From: Eunapius fragilis
Lineage: Eukaryota > Porifera > Demospongiae > Spongillida > Spongillidae
DNA: 64,000 bases
NCBI GenBank assembly: GCA_963681505.1
Contig: OY811973.1
Location: 7,294,673-7,358,672 of the forward strand
Direction of reading: 5' to 3'
Made by a program: the position numbers and the translations under genes. This document shows positions 19,640 to 55,900 of the stretch, piece by piece (position 1 is the first letter of the stretch; each line of letters starts with the position of its first letter). Under the pieces are notes generated by a model that had not been told where the DNA came from, did no database searches, and saw only the letters and a list, made by a program, of their open reading frames with translations.

Positions 19640-20860
19640 TAATTATTATTATGATGGCAAGCATATAAATACATGACACAGACACATGATATGCACAAAA
19701 CAAGTTGCTAGCCTACTAGCCTACTGAAGCTCAGGAGGAGGTATGGACCTGGACAGGATCGCGGTGGCATTGGCCCTGACAAGATTCATGTTCAACCTCC
19801 CATACAGCTCATGGATGACCACTGACTTCGACTTTCCCAATGATGTAGCCAAACGGGACCCAAGTTTAGAAAAGAAATCCCTAGCCGTCAAACCCCACGC
19901 CCCATAGGACTCCGCAACAACCGGGACACATACCCAACCCAAATCAGCACACTTGCCCGTGTTGGCTTTAAGCTTTCTCTCCTTGGTAGCCTTAGCTGCT
20001 GCACCAGCCGTCACTCCCGCTTCCAGAAGGGTGCGGAGAAGTGACGGATAGGTCCAGAGCCGCAGGCTTGCCCATGCACCAGTGAGGGATGAGGATGTCT
20101 GCTGGACGTGTGTTGCTGTGGTCGGGAGTAAGGTTATGGCCTACTTCTAAATGGACACTAAGATGGGCACGGTGACAGGACTCGGCCACAATGTCCCGAA
20201 GCCTGTTATGGCGATAGACAATATCCCCACCACGCTTGCATGTTGTGGCATGATGGCCAAGAGGATCGAGACTTTTTTCAGGACACAGTGCACATTGGGC
20301 ATCACCAGAAGTGTCTAAACCTAGCCACCACTTGACAGCAACTTGGAATTGTGATGGTTCAAGGTGGAGCCCCTGGCGCTCACATGGTGGCATTGATAAC
20401 CAGGAGGCTGCATGAGGTGACGAGATGGACAGCAAACGAGCCTTGTTTGCAACTGTAGAAGCTTCCACGAGGGAACTGAGAAGTTGGTTATCAAGCTTCT
20501 CTGATAACTTGCCCTGAGAGATAGCAGATGACAGGAAGTCCTCAAACTTAATGCTGTCCTCAGCAGGGACTAACCGATTAAACATGCCCACTGCATCAGA
20601 CAAATGTTGGGAAGAGTCTGGGGCTAATCCTGAGGAAGACAAAGAAGAAATAAAGGCAGTGCTTGCATGATGGGCAAGAGACCTTAAACCCAGGCCACCC
20701 CTGCTCAAGCTAAGTTGGGCCTGTTGCCAGGCAGCATCCGATGCATCAATGCCAGTAGATGATGAGAAACACTGGTGAATATCCTCATCAAACAATTGCA
20801 AAGCCTTAAACGAAAGGGATGGTGGGGTAGCACGAGCAATAATTTTTTTTTTCTCAACAA
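19640..20860 (-). pseudogene. Non-LTR retrotransposon, 3' part with restriction-like endonuclease, copy 1
   Basis: On the minus strand 20801-19992 and, after one frameshift near 20010, 20014-19721 read the C-terminal part of a non-LTR polyprotein. Landmarks are LSRGGLGLRSLAHHAS, VKWWLGLD, a CX2C...HX4C zinc cluster (CALCPEKSLDPLGHHATTC), and RPADIL plus GKPAALDLSVTSP, which fits a PD-(D/E)XK restriction-like nuclease core. Reverse transcriptase is absent, so the copy is 5'-truncated, normal for target-primed insertion. An AT-rich tail with TTATT units lies at 19600-19670. Three further copies are at 20870, 34900 and 38640. Confidence 0.8.
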
Positions 20861-20869
20861 ATTCTTATT

Positions 20870-21540: not shown

Positions 21541-21619
21541 AACCTGCACTAAATTTATTGATGTTCCTTCAGTTTAGTTGTTAGTGAAGTTGTTTTAATA
21601 TTCTAAAACCCAAGGAATA

Positions 21620-21870
21620 AGATCATGCATGATCATGCAATGAATCTTTGCAAGAATCATGCATGAATCTTGCATTTTATCATGCATGGAACACGCATTA
21701 AATTCGTACCTTTCATGCATGAATCTTGCAAGGATTCATGCATGATCTTGCATGCATTATGCATGATGTGTGCATGATCATGCATGTTCCATGAATGTAT
21801 TATGCATGTTATATGGATGATCACGCATGTTGTTTGCATGCGTGTATCCCATGCACATGCATGTTCTGTG
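21620..21870. repeat. Left subterminal CATGCATG array
   Basis: There are roughly a dozen occurrences of ATGCATG or close variants in 250 bp, many in the 10-bp palindrome TCATGCATGA. In Spm-type elements such subterminal arrays bind the accessory protein TnpA; here that role is an inference. Confidence 0.8.
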
Positions 21871-21996
21871 CCCCACGTCTGGCTGATCAATTAATGCAGT
21901 TTTAATTTCGTAGTAGGAATACTAAATGCATAACAAGGAAAGTACTCAAGACAGATACTTAATTGCCGCAGTACAGCACATGTAATATGTTCCTCA

Positions 21997-23455
21997 TTAC
22001 TCTTGGCCCAGGTCGCCTATCTCAGTTTCACTGGAACAGCTGGTGGACTGTTCTTCATTGTCTTCAATGGTGCTAGTGTTATCATCCTCTTGTTCTGAGT
22101 GTTCCTGTTCTGAAATCTGTATCGACTTGAGCTGGTCAATTTTTTTTAAAATTCCTTGCTGCTTCACGACACTTCTGGTTACATTTCCTTTTCAAGATCT
22201 TTATATCTAAACTATTCGGACCAAAACGTTTGTTGACACAGTCTAAAAATGATAATATATTATTTTAAGTAATAGATGATCTCATACCAATAAGCCTCTT
22301 CATTTTTTCCTTAGGCAATGCTGGTTTTGAGCTTCTCTTTGATTGAAAAACCAGTGACTTGCTCAGCTCCTTTTTTGTAAACATTGCATCTAGTAGTCCT
22401 AGTGCAGTTGTATATGGTGTTTTAGTGTTTATTTGACTCAAGTCTATGCCATCTGATCCATCTTGACAAGGTTCCTATATTTTAGGAATTGCATAATTAT
22501 ATGAAAATGATTAACATCACTTGCATGCCTTCAATAAAATATTCTTTATTTCTTTTAGCTCATTTTCTATAGACTGTAATCTTGTTTCTAGAGGCTGGAA
22601 TTTAAATTAAATATGTCACTGCATGTGAACCAGATATTTAACATACTGCAGGAATTGAATGTCCAGTTTTTCTATATGGGTCGGGTTCAGGTGACCTGCC
22701 ATAATCTGCCTGTAGTTCCTGCACGTAATATAACCATGAAGTTTGTATTTTCTGATCATGTACATATACATGCAAATCTTACATGCAGCACAACAGTTAC
22801 CTTGGCCTTTTTGAGACTATTTCCAAGTACCCGGGCCCCAGACATTGAAGATGGACCTGGTTCTTCACTTTCACCTCGCAATTGCAATTTACTTGCCTGA
22901 CTTTCTGCCAATACATGATCTGCCTGCATGTAATAATATAAACATAAAGTTTGCATTCTATCAAGCACATGCAAATATCTTACTTGCAACACAGCTGTTC
23001 CCTTGGCTTTTTTAAGAACATCAGATACAGTTTTAAGTACCTTTTTGTTCAATCGGCACGACTTTTTCTTCCCAAATCCGGATGGTGAGTCTGCTTCTTC
23101 ACTTTCCCCACTCATTAGCAATCGACCTGCCTGACTTTGAACTACATGTAACACCTGATCCTCTGCTGGAGCTGCAGATTCCAATGCACACGCAGATAAG
23201 GATTTTGAACTCTTCCTTTTTTCTGAATAAAATAATACAAAATTATATGCACCAAAATGTCATACCGCAAAATGATACAAACTGAACGGGATATTCTTTT
23301 CCATGATCACTGAGCAAGAGATCAGCTCTTTCATTAAAATCATTTTTTGAAATTGGGATGAGGTTGGGCTTCAGTAGTGCGGCAATTTTAACTTTCTTGA
23401 ATTCGCCAGTTTGTGCACACTTCACTATAACAGTTCCTGATGTACAATACATCAA
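21997..23455 (-). CDS. BEN-domain protein with coiled coil, six exons
   Basis: Proposed exons, 5' to 3': 23455-23266, 23222-22984, 22923-22801, 22594-22529, 22474-22288 and 22242 on. Phases match throughout and give 303 residues to TGA at 22136-22138. The protein runs: a start region (CAQTGEFKKVKIAALLKPN), a basic KKRKSSKS stretch (nuclear signal), two similar segments from exons 2 and 3 (SQAGRLLMSGESEE and SQASKLQLRGESEE), a short coiled coil (LETRLQSIENELKEIKN), then a BEN domain (LLDAMFTKKELSKSLVF ... KPALPKEKMKRLI ... KILKRKCNQKCREAAR). BEN domains bind DNA and act in chromatin. One intron would use a GC donor. A run of eight A just before the stop suggests a slip: with one fewer A the frame stays open 44 more codons to TAA at 21997-21999. 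It is head to head with the transposase gene. Confidence 0.7.
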
Positions 23456-24378
23456 TACATCAGTATATGCATAAGTGCCTGTACCTGATTACATAGCATG
23501 CAAATTAAACAAGTGTGGCCGCCATGCATGGTGGCTGTTGCGGGTACTGCTCCGTTGCATCTAGCTATTGCATGCTATAACTAGCTGGCGGCCGCGAATA
23601 ATAATAATATTTACCTATACGGACTGTATAAAATGATCGTTGTACGTGTCATTGTTTTGGCGGGCACACGCACGGTGGAACTTTTTACAACGCATTATTT
23701 CGTCAACCAGCTGGCAGCTAGAGCGTAAAAATCGGACAATTCAGCTAGGTACATAACTATCTATCCATATATGGTGCAGATCAGCGCGTCACATATCATG
23801 TTTTTAAATAAATAAATAAATATATATATATACGCCTAGAGATGCAAACCTGTGTTAATTGGTGATTACATATTTGCATGTACTTGACATTCTGTGTGTA
23901 TACACTTGTACATTCACAGCTGAAGCCAGCGTTTGTCACACAACATAAAAGCCACAATGTATATTCATGTTTGTATTCTTGTACGTTATAACCACTAACT
24001 GTTTTCATCCAGTCGGTTAATTTCTTCAAGAGTTTCACGGAGCTTACTGCTGGGTTGTCGACAACGCTTCCCAAGTGTGGCCATTGGATCGTGATCGTGA
24101 GCACGTTTCTTTTTCAAGTGACTGCACGTGACACGGTAATTAAATTCATAGAAGTGAATTTCATCATGCATGGATGCCATTATTATTTTTTTCCCTGCAT
24201 GTAAAACTTCCAGCAATATCAGGACACACGCACGTTGATTAAAAGCTTGTGCTAGATGCATGCATACATTGACTGTGTACTAGATGCACTTTGGAATGAT
24301 ATATAACTAGGTGTATAATTATTAATTTAGCATGATATGGGTTACCATTTTTTTATTTTCAGTCTTTCATTGAAAGAG

Positions 24379-26949
24379 ATGTCTCGATCCAGAGGTCAGT
24401 ATAACCTATATTTAAGGAATTCCTACAAGAGGATACCTAAATCCACTGTATCAAGTAGGAGAAAAAAGCAGGAAGCTTTGAGGAGTTTTGTACGAATGCT
24501 AGTACAACTTTCTGCATATATATTGTCTATAGTGCCATGCATCAGCATAATGCATTTGGACAGCTACATCCAACACAAATGTAAACATTTAATGTTCATT
24601 GAATTGTTTATTATAATCATCAATTCCCCTACATTTATTATAACATTTATAGTGGTAAGTTACTTGATCAACATAAATGTGAATGATAATTTCATTTCAG
24701 CTTATTGCGTCAGAGCAGAGAATTTTTGCAGATATTGCTACATCAACTACAGGTGCAGCTGCTTCAGAGTTAGGTACATGTACCACTAATACCATTCTCA
24801 TTGTGAAATCTTAGTACTTGGTGCATTTGGAATTCGATGAGAATCCATCTGTAGAACTTCCTTTGACATCAGATGCACTTATAGCCCCTCCAAGTACTTC
24901 TTTTGATTCTCATGGTAGGTCATTGTATAGTATTTTTAAAATTAAATTCACATGCAACACTGCATGCCAAAAAAACTGCATCTTTCCATTGTACATTTAG
25001 TGGCTGCATCAGACTGTGGTATGAATTTTGATGCTGTATTTGATGATGTTCTCATTCCATTCAAGGTATAATATATAAGGTTACAGATTTCTATGCTACT
25101 CATAGTACTACATTATAGATTATCAAAGCATGGAGAGTGGCCCTGACTCACTTCAAGTTGATGCATCTGTAGACTACAAATGTTTACAGCAGCCTATTTA
25201 TGATCATGCCAGAGTTAGTGTACTAGGGGCATACTGTTCAATTATGCAGTATTCTATAGCAAATAAGGTGCCATATACAGCTATTGATGGGCTTCTTAAA
25301 CTTCTTCAAGTGTTGTGCCCCGAACCGAACCTACTTCCAAAGAGTTTTTACAAAGTTAAAAAGTTCTTTAAACAATTTAACACCAAGACAATTTTGAAAA
25401 AGGTTTGTTGTAAGTGTTCATCTATTGTTGAAGATAGTTTAAATGTTTGTGACAAATGTGGTACTCTACAAGGCAATGTTGGTCAGCTTGCACACATACC
25501 CATTAGCAAAGCTCTCCAAACCATTGTATCAAGTAAGTTATAATACCAGTTACACTATAAAGTTAATTATCCTTTTCATAGATCATTGGAATGAAATAAC
25601 AGTTCCTAATATCCATGACACAACAAATACCATCAGTGATATCTGGACAGCTGATGGTATTAAACAGCATGATATCTTTTTTTCTGCTAAGGGCAATCTT
25701 GGTCTAAGCATTTTTACAGATGGAGTTCCGCTTTTTAAATCATCATCAATGACCTTTTGGCCAGTTTATGGAGTGATACTGAATTTGCCACCATCAATTC
25801 GAAACAACCCAGCCAATATTATGCTGCTTGCATTATGGTGTGGTCCAATGAAACCTTCAATGCAACTATTGCATTAAATTCTTTGCATTCTAATGGGATT
25901 GAAATTCATACGCATGAAGGTCTAAAGGTAGTTCATATTAAAGTGCTGACCTGCATATGTGACACAATAGCTAAAGCCCCAGTAATGGGCATTAAACAAT
26001 TCAATGGCATCTGTGGATGTCCTGTGTGCATTCACCCTGGAAAACGTTTAAGAAATGGGTCACGTATTTATCTTCCAGACCATGAATATGCACTGCGAAC
26101 ACATGGGGAGATGTGTGAGATTGCAGTAGAGGTTAAACGCACTGGTGCATCTGAACAAGGTGTTTTGTGTACTTCATCACTATCACAACTTATTGGATTT
26201 AACCTCATTGATGGTATTCCTATTGATTACACGCATGCAGGTCCTGAAGGTATTATAAAGAGACTAATGAGCTGTTGGTTTGATAAGTCAAACCATATGA
26301 AAGCTTTTTATCTAGGAGCTGAATTGAATTCTATAGATTCTGTATTTATAAAATTGAAGCCACCACATGACTTTACCAGGGCTCCTCGAAGTATTTCAAA
26401 ACATAGAAAGTACTGGAAGGCATCTGAATTTCGAAACTGGGTACTATTTTACTCTCTTCCACTCCTTCTTAATAAACTTCCTCCACTTTACTATCATCAT
26501 TATGCTCTATTAGTATCTGCGATGCATTTACTTCTTCAGCAAGATTTAAATAGGAACGAGATTGATGCAGCTGAAGTAATGCTTAAAGATTTTTGTTCTC
26601 TCCTGCCTGAACTGTATGGGGAAGTGAACTGTACTATCAATGCTCATCTACTTCTGCATTTAACACACTATGTTCGGCTGTGGGGACCTTTATGGACACA
26701 TTCTGCATTTGGATTTGAAAACAAAAATGGAATTGTTAAGAACCTTTCACATTCAAAATACCAAGTTTTGAATCAAATAATTTTCAATGTTGAAGTTGAA
26801 CAAACATTGCAACTTGTGCACCATAAACTTGCTCAGTGTGAGGATAACATAACTATGAATTTCATTAATGAATGCAGTCATTTCATGCCATCTGATCTTG
26901 AAGAAGTAGAAAACATGTGTATTTTATTCCAATTTCCTTTCAATATCTG
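24379..26949 (+). pseudogene. EnSpm/TNP2-like transposase gene, nearly intact, one frameshift
   Basis: Exons near 24379-24489 (MSRSRGQYNLYLRNSY), 24701-24773, 24815-24913, 25000-25064, 25118-25535 and 25582-26949 are separated by short introns; some exact borders are unsure. The central exon has PIYDHARVSVLGAYC and a zinc-ribbon (CCKCSSIVEDS...CDKCG). The last has the catalytic-Asp box FTDGVPLFKSSSMTFWPVYG, then KQFNGICGCPVCIHPG, IDYTHAGPEGIIKRLM, FYSLPLLLNKLPPLYYHHYA and LWGPLWTHSAFGFE, all hallmarks of metazoan EnSpm transposases. One indel near 25865-25880 moves the reading from the ..MKPSMQLL frame to the LNSLHSNGIEIHTHEG frame. Without it the gene would read through. The stop lies at the start of repeat R, so the last few residues may not be native. 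Confidence 0.85.
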
Positions 26950-27320
26950 AACCTGCGTCAGCAGGTTCAATATAGGATTGATTGGAATGATGAATGTCAT
27001 TAAAAATTTTAAATCGCGTCGGGAGGGACAACGGAGAAACGGATCACTTATCTCGTTGCAGCAATCGAACGACAACACCAAGATCTACGTTTTCATGCTA
27101 GTTTCATGTCATTAAACTATGCGCTTCCAGACAAACAAAGAACCTGCTTCTCGTGCCCATTCCCAAAAAAATTGTTCGTCGTCGTCGTCGTCGTCGTCTT
27201 CCTTAGGAAGGTATAACTCGAGCTACGAACGGTTTTAAAGAACGACAATAGTACCAATCTCTTCAGAATTTACCGGCACGTTATCCTAGCATGTCATTTG
27301 GACAATATCACATCTAGAAA
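26945..27320 (+). repeat. Dispersed repeat R, copy 2
   Basis: It starts with the hairpin GAACCTGCGTCAGCAGGTTC, then AATATAGGATTGATTGGAAT, ACAACGGAGAAACGGATCAC, a (GTC)n run at 27178-27200, GGTATAACTCGAGCTACGAA and a GTTATCC end. It shares this order with copies at 18060 and 49290. It follows the transposase stop codon directly. Confidence 0.8.
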
Positions 27321-27444
27321 GAAACTACAGCGAGAAATACCCTATTTTGTTGCAAGTTCTATGGCCATCTAGCAAGTTCTAGCAAGTTCTTAATAAAATG
27401 TATAATTTTAGGGAGTAAAAAAAAAAGAAAAAAAAACTTATGAA

Positions 27445-27741
27445 ACAAGTAAATAAAAACATTCTCTAACGAGAAAGTTGGTGGGCATATAGGATTGACA
27501 ATGTTGGTGTAAAAAGCACGGAAACAAGTGTGACAGAAATGTTACTGGAAAATTGAAATAGGCCTATATTTAGCCCATTTTCTCAGGCGTGCGCTGCCTA
27601 AATGTGACTGGGCTAAATATAGGCCTATTTCAATTTTCCAGTAACATTTCTGTCACACTTGTTTCCGTGCTTTTTACACCAACATTGTCAATCCTATATG
27701 CCCACCAACTTTCTCGTTAGAGAATGTTTTTATTTACTTGT
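27445..27741. mobile_element. Long-hairpin foldback element, copy D
   Basis: A complete palindrome of 297 bp; both arms carry TTCTC-TAAC-GAGAA or its complement. The inner arm TGAAATAGGCCTATATTTAG is shared with copies E, F and G. The loop near 27590 contains GGCGTGCGCTGCC. The left flank AAAAAAACTTATGAA is also found at copies E and G. No coding capacity. Confidence 0.92.
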
Positions 27742-27749
27742 AGTACCAA

Positions 27750-27895
27750 TCATTACTGTCTGTTGCTGGTCCAGCTTGTAGAGACACCCTTCAGGTGTAC
27801 AAAGATGAGGACATTTTAGGTGCATGTGACTTGTTTGTTGAAGTCATTGATGGAGAATGTGAGACCATAATTTCAATCTCTAGTATAATTACGTG
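27750..27895 (+). pseudogene. Unrecognised exon fragment after foldback copy D
   Basis: An open stretch of 47 codons (SLLSVAGPACRDTLQVYKDE, then ILGACDLFVEVIDGECET) begins at the foldback end and stops at TGA 27893. Codon use looks coding-like, but no family was recognised. It may be a piece of the EnSpm-like element or of a host exon cut by the insertion. Confidence 0.3.
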
Positions 27896-28149
27896 AGCTG
27901 TATTAGTTCAGGTACATAATAAAACATATGCTATCAAGGAACCAAATAAGCATGAACATCATTAATGTTCAAAGTCTGAGCACAAGTTGAGTGTCTTGTT
28001 CGTATTGTACTACATGTATTGGTCTATTATCATGTCAATATCCATCACTTTCCTTCACTTACTTTAACAAAGGCAATCATCAGTTGCTAAAAGGCACATG
28101 TGGTACTTCTTAGATCTTTCTGCAAAGGCATATCCACATTTATCACCAT

Positions 28150-28350
28150 ATATGCTGGATAGTAAGGATCATGCATGTTCATGCATGTCTGAATAGCTGG
28201 CATCAAACATTCATAATCGATTATGAAAATTCCATTCAAGATTAGCATGCATGATCCATGCATGGTAATGCATGGCATCTAGCACCTTGAAAAGTAGCTC
28301 CATGCATACCATGCAACATCATGCATGAAACATGCATGACCATGCAAGAC
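28150..28350. repeat. Right subterminal CATGCATG array
   Basis: Repeated CATGCATG and TCATGCATGA-like motifs mirror the left array at 21620-21870. It lies just inside the right end of the EnSpm-like element. Confidence 0.78.
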
Positions 28351-28369
28351 ACTTTTCCTTGGGAAATGC

Positions 28370-28870
28370 CTTCGTATAATCAAAAGAAGAGATAAAAGCA
28401 ACGAGCGGAATACCTCCAAAAGGTAGACGAGAACAAAGCTAAAGACCGAGCGCTCTACAAGGCCAATCCCGGAAAAAAGAAGGCCTCTGTTAGCGACAGC
28501 TACAAGGCAGATCACGAAAAAGAGGCCTCTGTTCGCGACAGCTACAAGGCCGATCTCGAAAAGAAAATGGCCTCTGACAACTACAACGCACTAACTACCG
28601 CGAGGAGAACCGTGCTGCTAAAAGGCGGCGATATGAAGAGGACCTCGAGGAAAACCGCGCTGCTAACAGGCAGAAATACGAGGACAATTCAGCTGCCATT
28701 AAAGCATCTAAAAGGAGTCGGTATTGGAATGACCCCGCTGTCCGATTGGCTAAATGTGCTTCCGAGAGGACGCGGTACCGCAGGGGTCACAGAACTACCA
28801 CTACCACCCAAATGTATGTTATGGCATGTTGTATTAAAAAGCTGTGCATGCAACATTTGTACAGCTTAGT
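28370..28870 (+). pseudogene. Charged-repeat gene (unit K), locus 1, one exon, broken
   Basis: In shifting frames it codes two or three copies of a KASVRDSYKADPEKK-like 20-residue unit, then EEDLEENRAANRQKYEDNSA, AIKASKRSRYWNDPAVRLA and SERTRYRRGHRTTTTTQ, ending before a GTATGTT donor. A frameshift near 28390 and others around 28560-28620 break it. The same gene lies inverted at 47838-49138, where a second exon is present. Locus 1 lacks that exon: sequence jumps at CTTCCTTATACTTAT near 28957-28970, a deletion joined at a short CTTAT homology. Function unknown; the product would be highly charged and helical. Confidence 0.7.
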
Positions 28871-52947: not shown

Positions 52948-55900
52948 CTAGTTGAAGCATGCAGGACTGGAGATGTGAGAGCTGTCCAACAGCTCCTGTC
53001 ACGTGGTGTTGGTGTGGATGTTGAGTATGACAGGGTGTGTACATGTGTATGTTGGGTATGGGGAGGTGTGTACATGTGTATGTTGAATATGGGGAGGTAA
53101 GTACATGTGTATGTTGGGTATGGGGAGGTATGTACATGTGTATGTTGAGTATGGGGAGGTATGTACATGTGTATGTTGAGTATGGGGAGGTGTGTACATG
53201 TGTATGTTGAGTATGGGGAGGTATGTACATGTGTATGTTGAGTATGGGGAGGTATGTACATGTGTATGTTGAGTATGGGAGGTATATACATGTGCATGTT
53301 GAGTATGGGGATCGAGGTACATGTATGTACATGTGAAAAGTTTTTGTATTGATGGTTTAGTAGTGTTATGCATGTAACCTTTTATACTACAGAAGGGCAG
53401 TTAGTAATATCATACATTTAATGCTATCATAAACATTTCAATGTCGGTCTTTTTACATAACTGAAGTTGTTTTCTTCAAAACAATCATGGCGCCTATTAC
53501 TGCAACCAGATCTTTGTTCATTGTTTAAACATATGATTGTGAAATAATAGTTGCTATCGTAAGGATATGATAGTCTGGCAGTATTAATGAGGCCAAAGAA
53601 TTGGTTTTGTCTCTTGCTAGTAGTTTCCATGCTCATTGCCACTAGATTTTGTTCCATCTGATGTGAATGTGAACAACAATCAGTGCATTGTTTAATTCCA
53701 CATGTTGTCACCTCATTGATGCATGTGTATTGCACTGCTTATCTTTACCCTCACCTCCCATATGTAGGAGACACCACTGTATAGGGCAGCTCAAAATGGT
53801 CATACAGCTGTGGTGGAGATCCTTGTAAAGGCAGGAGCTAATGTGAACAAAGTGAGTGATGTAGGATGTGGTGAAGTACTAACAAGCAGAAGAAGGGTTG
53901 ATCCAAATGCATTGTATTCATTGTCTTGTATCAATGCAATTTGTTAACTAAGTATGTCTTATCCATGCTATGTATATGTACATGGGTATAGGATTGAATA
54001 ATTTTTATGTAGAATGGTTTAGTGGTCTAAAAGTAGCAATGGGGAGGTGGTGACTGCATATCATTGAATATCAAGTTTTTTAAATCACAAACTACATGTA
54101 TGTATAACTATGTACATGCACAGTGCTTATATGCTATGCATATAAGGCCATATAAACACTTCTACCCTGGAAGGGCTTTCCTGCCTTCTGCCACACTCTT
54201 TGTCTGCTCCTCGCACATGTGTATTTGACTTCCTCACATCACCACCTGTATGAATATTGTTTCTTTACTGAATGCCATTTACTGCAATAGGTAGGCAATG
54301 ACCTGAGTACTCCCAGACCTATTACACTACCATTGACTTCCAATCCTCTAGGTCATTTAATATTCTTGTTTTTACATCTTAATTATTTATCTGTGTTTGC
54401 ACTTATCTCATTAAGTATGGGGCAGTTTGAAACCTCCATGGGGCACTTGTTAGATTTCCATTAATCAAACAGTACTTAAAACTATCCAGTTGGGGGGTTC
54501 ACATTGGTGGCTTCTACCCTGACCTAACAACTTTTATTACCTCGAAGAACATCTAATGAAGAGTACAACACTAGTTCATGTCTTGAAAATTTCTCTTTCT
54601 TTTCATTATGTGAATCCCACTCATCCATCATCAGTGCTTATGCATGTGGAAAGTATTTGTATTGAGGATTAGGTAGTTAGTATGTGGAGTGGTCTAAAAG
54701 TAGCATTGGTGAGGTGGGGACTATTCAATCTTTGGTGGTTTAATATTTAATGATAATGTGCTAAATATCCCTGAGGGGGAACATCCCCTGGGCAAGGGCC
54801 TCACTTCCATTCAACCATTTCTCTCAGCTTCAGTCACACCCAATCTAACACTATGTCCACTATTACAGTTTTGCCTTACTTCTGTGTCATACATGTAGCA
54901 GACTTGTGCCCACGTCTCGCACTCTGTCCACCTGTTATTTGCCGCCATTTTTCTTCTTCTTTTCGTTCTTCTTCCTTCCACCATCAAGAACTCGAGCTAG
55001 AAGCATTGTTCAAGAGTGCTAACAGCATCGATCATTTCAGCATGTATCCGGATATTATCTTTAGTATATATGACCCATTGGGCGAAATACAAAAGCAATT
55101 AGTAACTAATTCAGTATACACAGCTTGATATACAAACAATATTGTACCCAGGCCATACATCTACTACGTTATTCACCGACATATGGTAACCCACACCTAC
55201 ACTTTACGTTGGTTATTAATAGTCATCTGTTTGAAGAAATCAACAAGGCTAAAGCCCACAAGCAAAGCTAATCCCATAAAGAAGGTGTCCGCTACGACGC
55301 TGATCCAGGAAAGGACTATGCGCGTGACAGCTACGAGGCTGATCCAGGAAAGAAGGACTATGAGCATGACAGCTACGAGGCTGATCTGCTTCATCAGCCA
55401 TGTACATGTAAAAGTTAAAACTGTCTGATTTGCTAATACAAGACCCAGATGTCCAGTCCCAATAGATGACGCACTGCCATAGGGGTCTTACTTCAAAATT
55501 GTGTACATGCTATCTCATCTCATGAAGAAATTAAAATTGTATGAAATGCGTAATAAAAAAATTCTCTGTGAGAAAGTTGGTGTATAGGATTAATATTGGA
55601 AGGCAATAGTGGTCTAAAAAGCGAGGAAACAAGGGTCAAATTTAGAGGGAAAATGTAAACTCGCCCATTTGTAGGACATTATGTTTGTGTGCAGAATATA
55701 GGACTATTATATTATCTTCCCTTATTTTTAGACCCTTGTTTCCTCCCTTTTAACACCACTGTTGGCTTCTCCTATATGTTACCAACTTTCTCACAGAGAA
55801 TGTTTTTATTACCGGTTCTACAAGACTATTGTTTACATAGAGGATTACAAATCAATGGTCCCTTGGAACAGGCATAATGGAAGAGTCCAATATGACAGTT

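Follow-up and report, generated by a model that had tools for sequence, protein, structure and literature searches.

The window analysed here, a stretch of 64,000 nucleotides from Eunapius fragilis (contig OY811973.1, positions 7,294,673 to 7,358,672), holds at positions 21609-28363 one complete DNA transposon of the CACTA kind with two multi-exon genes inside, one for a TNP2-type transposase and the other for a protein with a BEN domain. With a probability that we would put at roughly 0.65, this is a CACTA/TRC-like cut-and-paste transposon encoding, together with its TNP2 transposase, a BEN protein that binds the arrays at the element's ends and aids cutting. In such a mechanism, the BEN protein would bind the arrays of CATG palindromes, which take up some 200-260 bp on either side, would cluster through a putative coiled coil and so draw the two ends together, and would help the transposase cut; the work performed by TnpA in maize Spm/En would here be done by an unrelated domain.

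That the two genes belong together is seen in the other copies of the element. The genome searched amounts to 219 Mb in 24 contigs, and the left end (262 bp, 21609-21870) and the right end (214 bp, 28150-28363) were searched separately, all counts being lower bounds. This paired-end search, proposed in the initial annotation of the window, returned at least eight sites where both ends lie 6.2-7.0 kb apart, which we regard as complete copies (L017, the window copy, and L018, L019, L020, L021, L022, L024 and L025). In pairwise comparisons over aligned columns these copies are 97.9-100% identical; all eight carry both genes between the same ends, the BEN region aligns throughout, and none ends elsewhere or lacks BEN (0/8). 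The recurrence of this whole arrangement at eight different sites shows that both genes are integral to one element, as the annotation had inferred. The transposon has been active recently. Besides the complete copies, the search returned a rearranged one, L023, of which the left end alone was found, one strong end each in C19 and C20, and weaker left ends at further sites.

All complete copies begin with CCCAAGG and end with CCTTGGG, the CACTA core being absent, and every one is flanked by a 2-bp repeat (AA, TG, TT, GT, CT, TT, AC and TA). The chance of 2-bp identity in the flanks is 0.064, which gives a probability of about 3e-10 for its occurrence in eight of eight copies. The 3-bp target duplications that had been anticipated were not seen: identity over 3 bp was found in the flanks of only one of the eight copies, and a duplication of this length is excluded at the other seven sites. 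In the window, the two copies of the duplication (AA) lie at 21607-21608 on the left and at 28364-28365 on the right; the window alone would also be compatible with 3 bp (AAA), and the 2-bp length comes from the other seven copies and from empty sites of L024. The latter copy sits in a tandem repeat with a 45-bp spacing, the uninterrupted units of which, taken from L024's own flank and from similar units in the window, represent empty sites with a single AC, and exact controls for this site, in which both ACs were kept or one further base was dropped, had no match in the search. A tandem repeat coding for KADPEKK-like units is present at about 28480-28600 of the window, near 55328-55383, and in the flanks of L024; this repeat family adjoins or surrounds two of the eight copies, those of the window and L024.

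On account of the CCC ends and the 2-bp repeats, the element fits, by its sequence, the animal (TRC-like, CCC-ended) branch of the CACTA/EnSpm superfamily (CMC) rather than Spm. The initial annotation had recognized an EnSpm-like element and drawn a parallel with plant Spm; membership in the plant-type Spm/En group was rejected because of the CCCAAGG/CCTTGGG ends and the 2-bp duplication. In the published sources, plant CACTA elements are described with a CACTA core and 3-bp duplications (PMC2613891), and the animal TRC elements of the CACTA superfamily, reported by DeMarco and colleagues, with CCC termini and 2-bp direct repeats (PMC1636069), the repeats being found in 7 of 14 copies of SmTRC1 of Schistosoma mansoni (PMC1636069); 2-bp duplications are also known for CACTA-type elements with 5'-CAC ends (PMC6004678). 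Our element shares with SmTRC1 and its relatives the Transposase_21 domain, the CCC termini and the 2-bp direct repeats, and differs from SmTRC1, whose splice products outside the transposase domain are reported to lack detectable conservation (PMC1636069), in having a separate divergent BEN gene and CATG arrays. Maize Spm/En requires two proteins, a putative transposase of the tnp2 type and TnpA, by which the subterminal repeats are recognised (PMC2613891). With Spm/En and with soybean Tgmt, the element has in common a TNP2-type transposase, short imperfect inverted repeats, subterminal motifs and a second protein (PMC2613891); unlike them, it has CCC ends and a 2-bp duplication, and its second protein is not a splice product of the TnpA type but a BEN protein with a gene to itself. 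A TnpA-type accessory from the same transcription unit was not found, the second gene being on the opposite strand with a Pfam match to BEN, although no direct comparison with a TnpA sequence was made.

The terminal inverted repeats, at 21609-21639 (plus strand, beginning with CCCAAGG) and 28333-28363 (minus strand, ending with CCTTGGG), pair over 31 nt with 81% complementarity, in agreement with the imperfect 31-bp ends first described, and their terminal bases are the same in the eight copies; about 10 bases are absent just inside the left end of L025. Next to them are the left subterminal array (21624-21870), with CATG palindromes as CATGCATG units, and the right subterminal array (28150-28350), likewise of CATG palindromes. 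The window copy has seven occurrences of CATGCATG in the left 262 bp and six in the right 214 bp (28150-28363), versus two in the 6279 bp between, and 200 dinucleotide shuffles of each region gave means of 0.91, 0.35 and 0.32 and maxima of 5, 2 and 2 for left, right and interior, respectively. A chance origin of the arrays was rejected since their counts exceed those of the shuffles, and the palindromic arrays that had been noticed inside both ends are therefore genuine. Across the eight complete copies there are 6-8 occurrences on the left, 6 on the right and 2-4 in the interior, and CATG itself occurs 23 times in the first 270 bp of the window copy against a background of 2.0. In the window copy and L019, 74 bp of the right array are absent.

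The BEN-domain gene (22139-24180, minus strand) and the transposase gene (plus strand) stand head to head on opposite strands with a short intergenic space, a divergent arrangement that had been seen correctly from the start. The same holds for the presence of a BEN domain, but we predict eight segments for this gene instead of six exons (24001-24180, 23267-23434, 22984-23220, 22783-22923, about 22650-22723, 22526-22594, 22289-22474 and 22139-22240), with splice sites set by eye and with codons split by introns omitted from the coordinates. No in-phase joining with GT-AG sites was found at the junction 22526/22474, from the putative coiled-coil exon to the first BEN exon. The BEN domain lies at the C-terminal end of the protein and is encoded in two exons (22139-22429, minus strand) around a 45-bp intron (22243-22287), which measures 54 bp in six of the eight copies; preceding it is a short segment (22526-22594, minus strand) that was judged by eye to be coiled-coil-like. 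With the two exons joined, the domain scores 23.8 bits against Pfam BEN (PF10523; cut-off 23.2), and 22.2 bits, below the cut-off, when trailing residues are included, BEN being the only Pfam match above cut-off in this gene; the score in an older relative, L037, is 20.5 bits, below the cut-off. The domain is free of stops and frameshifts in all eight complete copies, and the predicted BEN exons of the window copy have no frame break. Elsewhere in the gene, frame-shifting indels affect exon 1 of L018 and L025, exon 3 of L025 carries a 629-bp insertion, and L020-L022 have lost 11 bp at an exon border. The reading frame stops directly after the residues REAARN in five of the eight copies and a few residues later in two (window and L019), and continues in L020.

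A profile made from four transposon sequences only, namely this BEN and its older relatives, had BEND6 as its best solved structure, a weak match (E 0.27); phmmer searches against solved structures found no BEN structure with the window BEN and no match at all with the L042 BEN, and a search for DUF4806, a BEN subtype, had no match anywhere, controls included. In an alignment with BANP, the K and R of the NQKCR motif of the transposon BEN coincide with a K-C-R taken to be Lys314 and Arg316 (PMC11472053), the profile used being mixed with other BEN genes. Since three of the sequences in it belong to different BEN genes in the genome, the BEND3 and BANP matches of this mixed profile are not specific to the transposon BEN.

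The transposase gene has its 5' and central part at 24379-26945, with tentative first exons and core segments at 25130-25531, 25581-25868 and 25883-26920, and its 3' remainder, with a short spacer, at 27741-28149 (plus strand). In the window its frame is broken by a 19-bp deletion at 25870-25871; the gene there also carries a nested insertion of 795 bp (26946-27740) and has lost 199 bp next to this insertion, a loss common to the window copy and L019. The nested insertion contains a perfect 133-bp inverted repeat (27445-27577 and 27609-27741) with arms 31 bp apart. It is found, with 793-795 bp, in the same four of the eight copies as the 19-bp deletion (window, L018, L019 and L024), and has therefore travelled with the transposon. 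Both lesions are absent from the remaining four (L020, L021, L022 and L025), in which an open frame of 608-648 aa spans the tnp2 domain. The identification of the gene as TNP2-type was borne out by open copy L021, with 54.9 bits against Pfam Transposase_21 (tnp2, PF02992; cut-off 28.6) and with matches below threshold to DUF4218 and DUF1258, and in a profile search of the genome four copies had tnp2 scores of 57.7 or 56.9 bits. Of the two pieces into which the deletion divides the gene in the window copy, the first (25581-25868) reaches 26.5 bits (E 4e-6), just below the cut-off, and the second matches DUF4218 only, below its cut-off. Because all eight copies lie at different sites with target duplications, the sublineage with the broken transposase (4/8 copies) was probably mobilized in trans, the enzyme being supplied by copies in which the frame is open.

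Substitutions within the family were counted in the BEN segments, leaving out exon 5, and in the transposase, including its tentative exons, changes being treated as independent. BEN has 17 nonsynonymous changes in 848 sites and 11 synonymous in 235 (pN/pS 0.43, Fisher p 0.03); the transposase has 43 in 1623 and 21 in 453 (pN/pS 0.57, Fisher p 0.04). We also considered 13 older or partial loci (L026-L038), chosen because they match the ends less strongly or match only one of them. Six of these loci (L028, L030, L031, L033, L037 and L038) contain parts of BEN, 13-57 residues long and 49-85% identical, and no BEN match was found in the other seven (L026, L027, L029, L032, L034, L035 and L036); a transposase piece, 54% identical, is found only in L037 and L038. 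These two, on C7 near 8.07 and 7.98 Mb, hold the same older BEN element in opposite orientation about 100 kb apart, and are nearly identical over about 7.5 kb, flanking sequence included; being part of a larger duplication, they were counted once. Over the 64 codons of the BEN domain that were compared, pS is 0.91 and pN 0.21 between the window and L037, and 0.88 and 0.19 between the window and L030, while L037 and L030 are close to each other (pS 0.08, pN 0.05) and therefore count as one lineage. Since silent sites are saturated and yet the protein is conserved, BEN has been long kept under purifying selection and, judged from these substitution patterns, is an old, selected part of the transposon lineage. 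Right ends of the older relatives were looked for and not found; in the left 270 bp, seven older loci have 9-17 CATG (23 in the window copy; background 2.0).

Two other TNP2 families of the same genome, represented by one copy each (L044 and L045), provided a comparison. Their transposases are 25% identical to that of the BEN element (E 1e-28 and 5e-28) and 36% identical to each other, and both families resemble the BEN element in having an accessory gene head to head with the transposase gene and a segment that looks, by eye, coiled-coil-like. Unlike in the BEN element, their accessory genes are devoid of BEN and unrelated to the BEN gene (best E 1.1), with no Pfam match above cut-off, and their arrays are of GTTAT/ATAAC words. 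The two accessory proteins share a C-terminal region (32% identity, E 2e-6). These genes lie at L044:1900-3119 and L045:1-1003 (minus strand), and the L045 protein gives 19.3 bits against DUF4616 (cut-off 27), where L044 gives none; if this weak match is real, the accessory gene of a transposon could be the origin of a DUF4616 gene. GTTAT/ATAAC words occur 10 times in 211 bp of the L044 left array and 11 times in 201 bp downstream of the L045 transposase, counts reached by none of 500 shuffles each, and at most twice per 200 bp in the BEN element. CATG reaches up to 18 occurrences per 200 bp in the BEN element, compared with 6 in L044 and 5 in L045, the maxima of the latter two being away from their arrays. 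The ends of L044 and L045 were sought but could not be fixed. Accessory gene and array motif therefore differ together in the three lineages compared, and the transposases differ too; because of the GTTAT/ATAAC arrays in L044 and L045, we raised our confidence in the BEN protein as reader of the end arrays from 0.62 to 0.65. Although none of the eight complete copies has a transposase without BEN, BEN is absent at that place in both of these families, and the pairing is therefore limited to the BEN-element lineage.

As to what the arrays are for, the CATG palindromes look like binding sites of the transposon's BEN protein, a reading that we infer from the specificity of a known BEN domain. The BEN domain of human NAC1/NACC1 selects the palindrome ACATGT, with the CATG core required (PMC7764960), and the crystal structure of the NACC1 BEN domain has contacts to the CAT bases (PMC11472053). 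The transposon thus has in common with NACC1/NAC1 a BEN domain and, in the unit of its arrays, the CATG core of the NAC1 sites; it is unlike NACC1/NAC1 in that the latter is a host gene with a BTB domain and a transcription regulator.

Several observations weigh against such a reading. Specificities of BEN domains vary, BANP and BEND3 preferring CGCG (PMC11472053), and a CATG match is therefore not implied by the BEN fold alone; the site of Insv is CCAATTGG (PMC7764960), that of NACC2 is described differently in PMC11472053 and PMC7764960, and the in-vitro motif of NAC1 is said to mismatch the de novo motif from chromatin immunoprecipitation (PMC7764960). The Pfam BEN score of the transposon protein is borderline, and its BEN could not be aligned with NACC1. 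The NAC1 site ACATGT occurs three times in the L044 array, and the GTTAT/ATAAC motif was picked after viewing L044, in a comparison of only two families with one copy each. Four of the six older BEN loci have no transposase match; the older loci were found through similarity to the left array, so that their richness in CATG is not independent support, and two of the seven CATG-rich ones, L029 and L034, have no BEN match.

It is possible, but in our opinion unlikely, that the BEN protein is instead the element's chromatin or transcription factor, acting on the divergent promoter or against silencing, with the transposase alone recognising the ends. Such a role would be in line with the short space between the two divergent genes and with the known action of BEN proteins in transcription and chromatin (PMC11472053), and since TnpA also regulates Spm/En (PMC2613891), both roles can coexist. 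The CATGCATG units, however, are concentrated at both outer ends and rare between them (6-8 and 6 versus 2-4), a distribution more in keeping with recognition of the ends than with control of the promoter alone. Less probable still, and in our view doubtful, is that the protein bound to the CATG arrays is the transposase or one of the host, the BEN gene having another role. Other DNA-binding proteins also recognise CATG repeats. Against this explanation, L044 and L045 differ from the BEN element in array motif as well as in accessory gene, although their transposases differ too (25% identity), and binding of the array in maize falls to a separate accessory protein (PMC2613891). Finally, that BEN is a captured host gene carried as a passenger with no role in transposition is very improbable and was rejected, in spite of BEN matches elsewhere in the genome (14 listed), as BEN occurs in every one of the eight complete copies and also in 6 of the 13 older or partial loci that have this kind of end, with purifying selection on its domain between them.

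The initial annotation had also considered that BEN might be found alone at a host locus. The 14 BEN matches elsewhere come from single-exon scoring, with the window BEN itself not among the matches listed, and those that were inspected are different genes from the transposon BEN. Among the best 150 of 305 TNP2 candidates, which were the ones scored in the TNP2 profile search, none had BEN within 5 kb, the nearest lying 8.4 kb away, again by single-exon BEN scoring; because such a search misses the window BEN, it cannot show that other TNP2 elements are without BEN. Another BEN gene, at about 3908-4233 of L039 (C8:2155600-2163600), has an intron at about the same position of the domain, as judged by eye, and six matches of equal score on six contigs, which as single exons are below the Pfam cut-off, one piece having 23.4 bits. 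Its flanks are long ATC-type simple repeats, with no match to the BEN-element transposase within 8 kb; L039 may be another mobile BEN-carrying unit. Outside the transposon, the minus strand of the window has at 19992-20864 an open frame of 290 aa, which resembles the terminal part of a reverse transcriptase from a retrotransposon, with a zinc ribbon.

A BEN gene paired with a CACTA-type transposase in one element was not found in the literature searched, which was available in part and did not cover Repbase. In plant CACTA elements, divergence is noted among the arrays as well as among their presumed binding proteins, with little similarity shared (PMC2613891). That CACTA-type elements swap their accessory DNA-binding module together with its array, so that here a BEN with NACC1-like CATG preference would have taken on independently the work of plant TnpA and the sister families would use GTTAT/ATAAC with another protein, is a proposition that we hold to be evenly balanced. 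Our analysis touches in this way on the question of how the reader of the end arrays comes to be exchanged in CACTA elements, and because the BEN family has DNA targets known in other proteins, the pairing of binder and array is directly testable. That a BEN gene resides in a mobile element with recent activity also indicates a possible route for the spread of BEN in animal genomes, and, if this is true, BEN-carrying CACTA elements could be a source of the numerous BEN genes found in animals.

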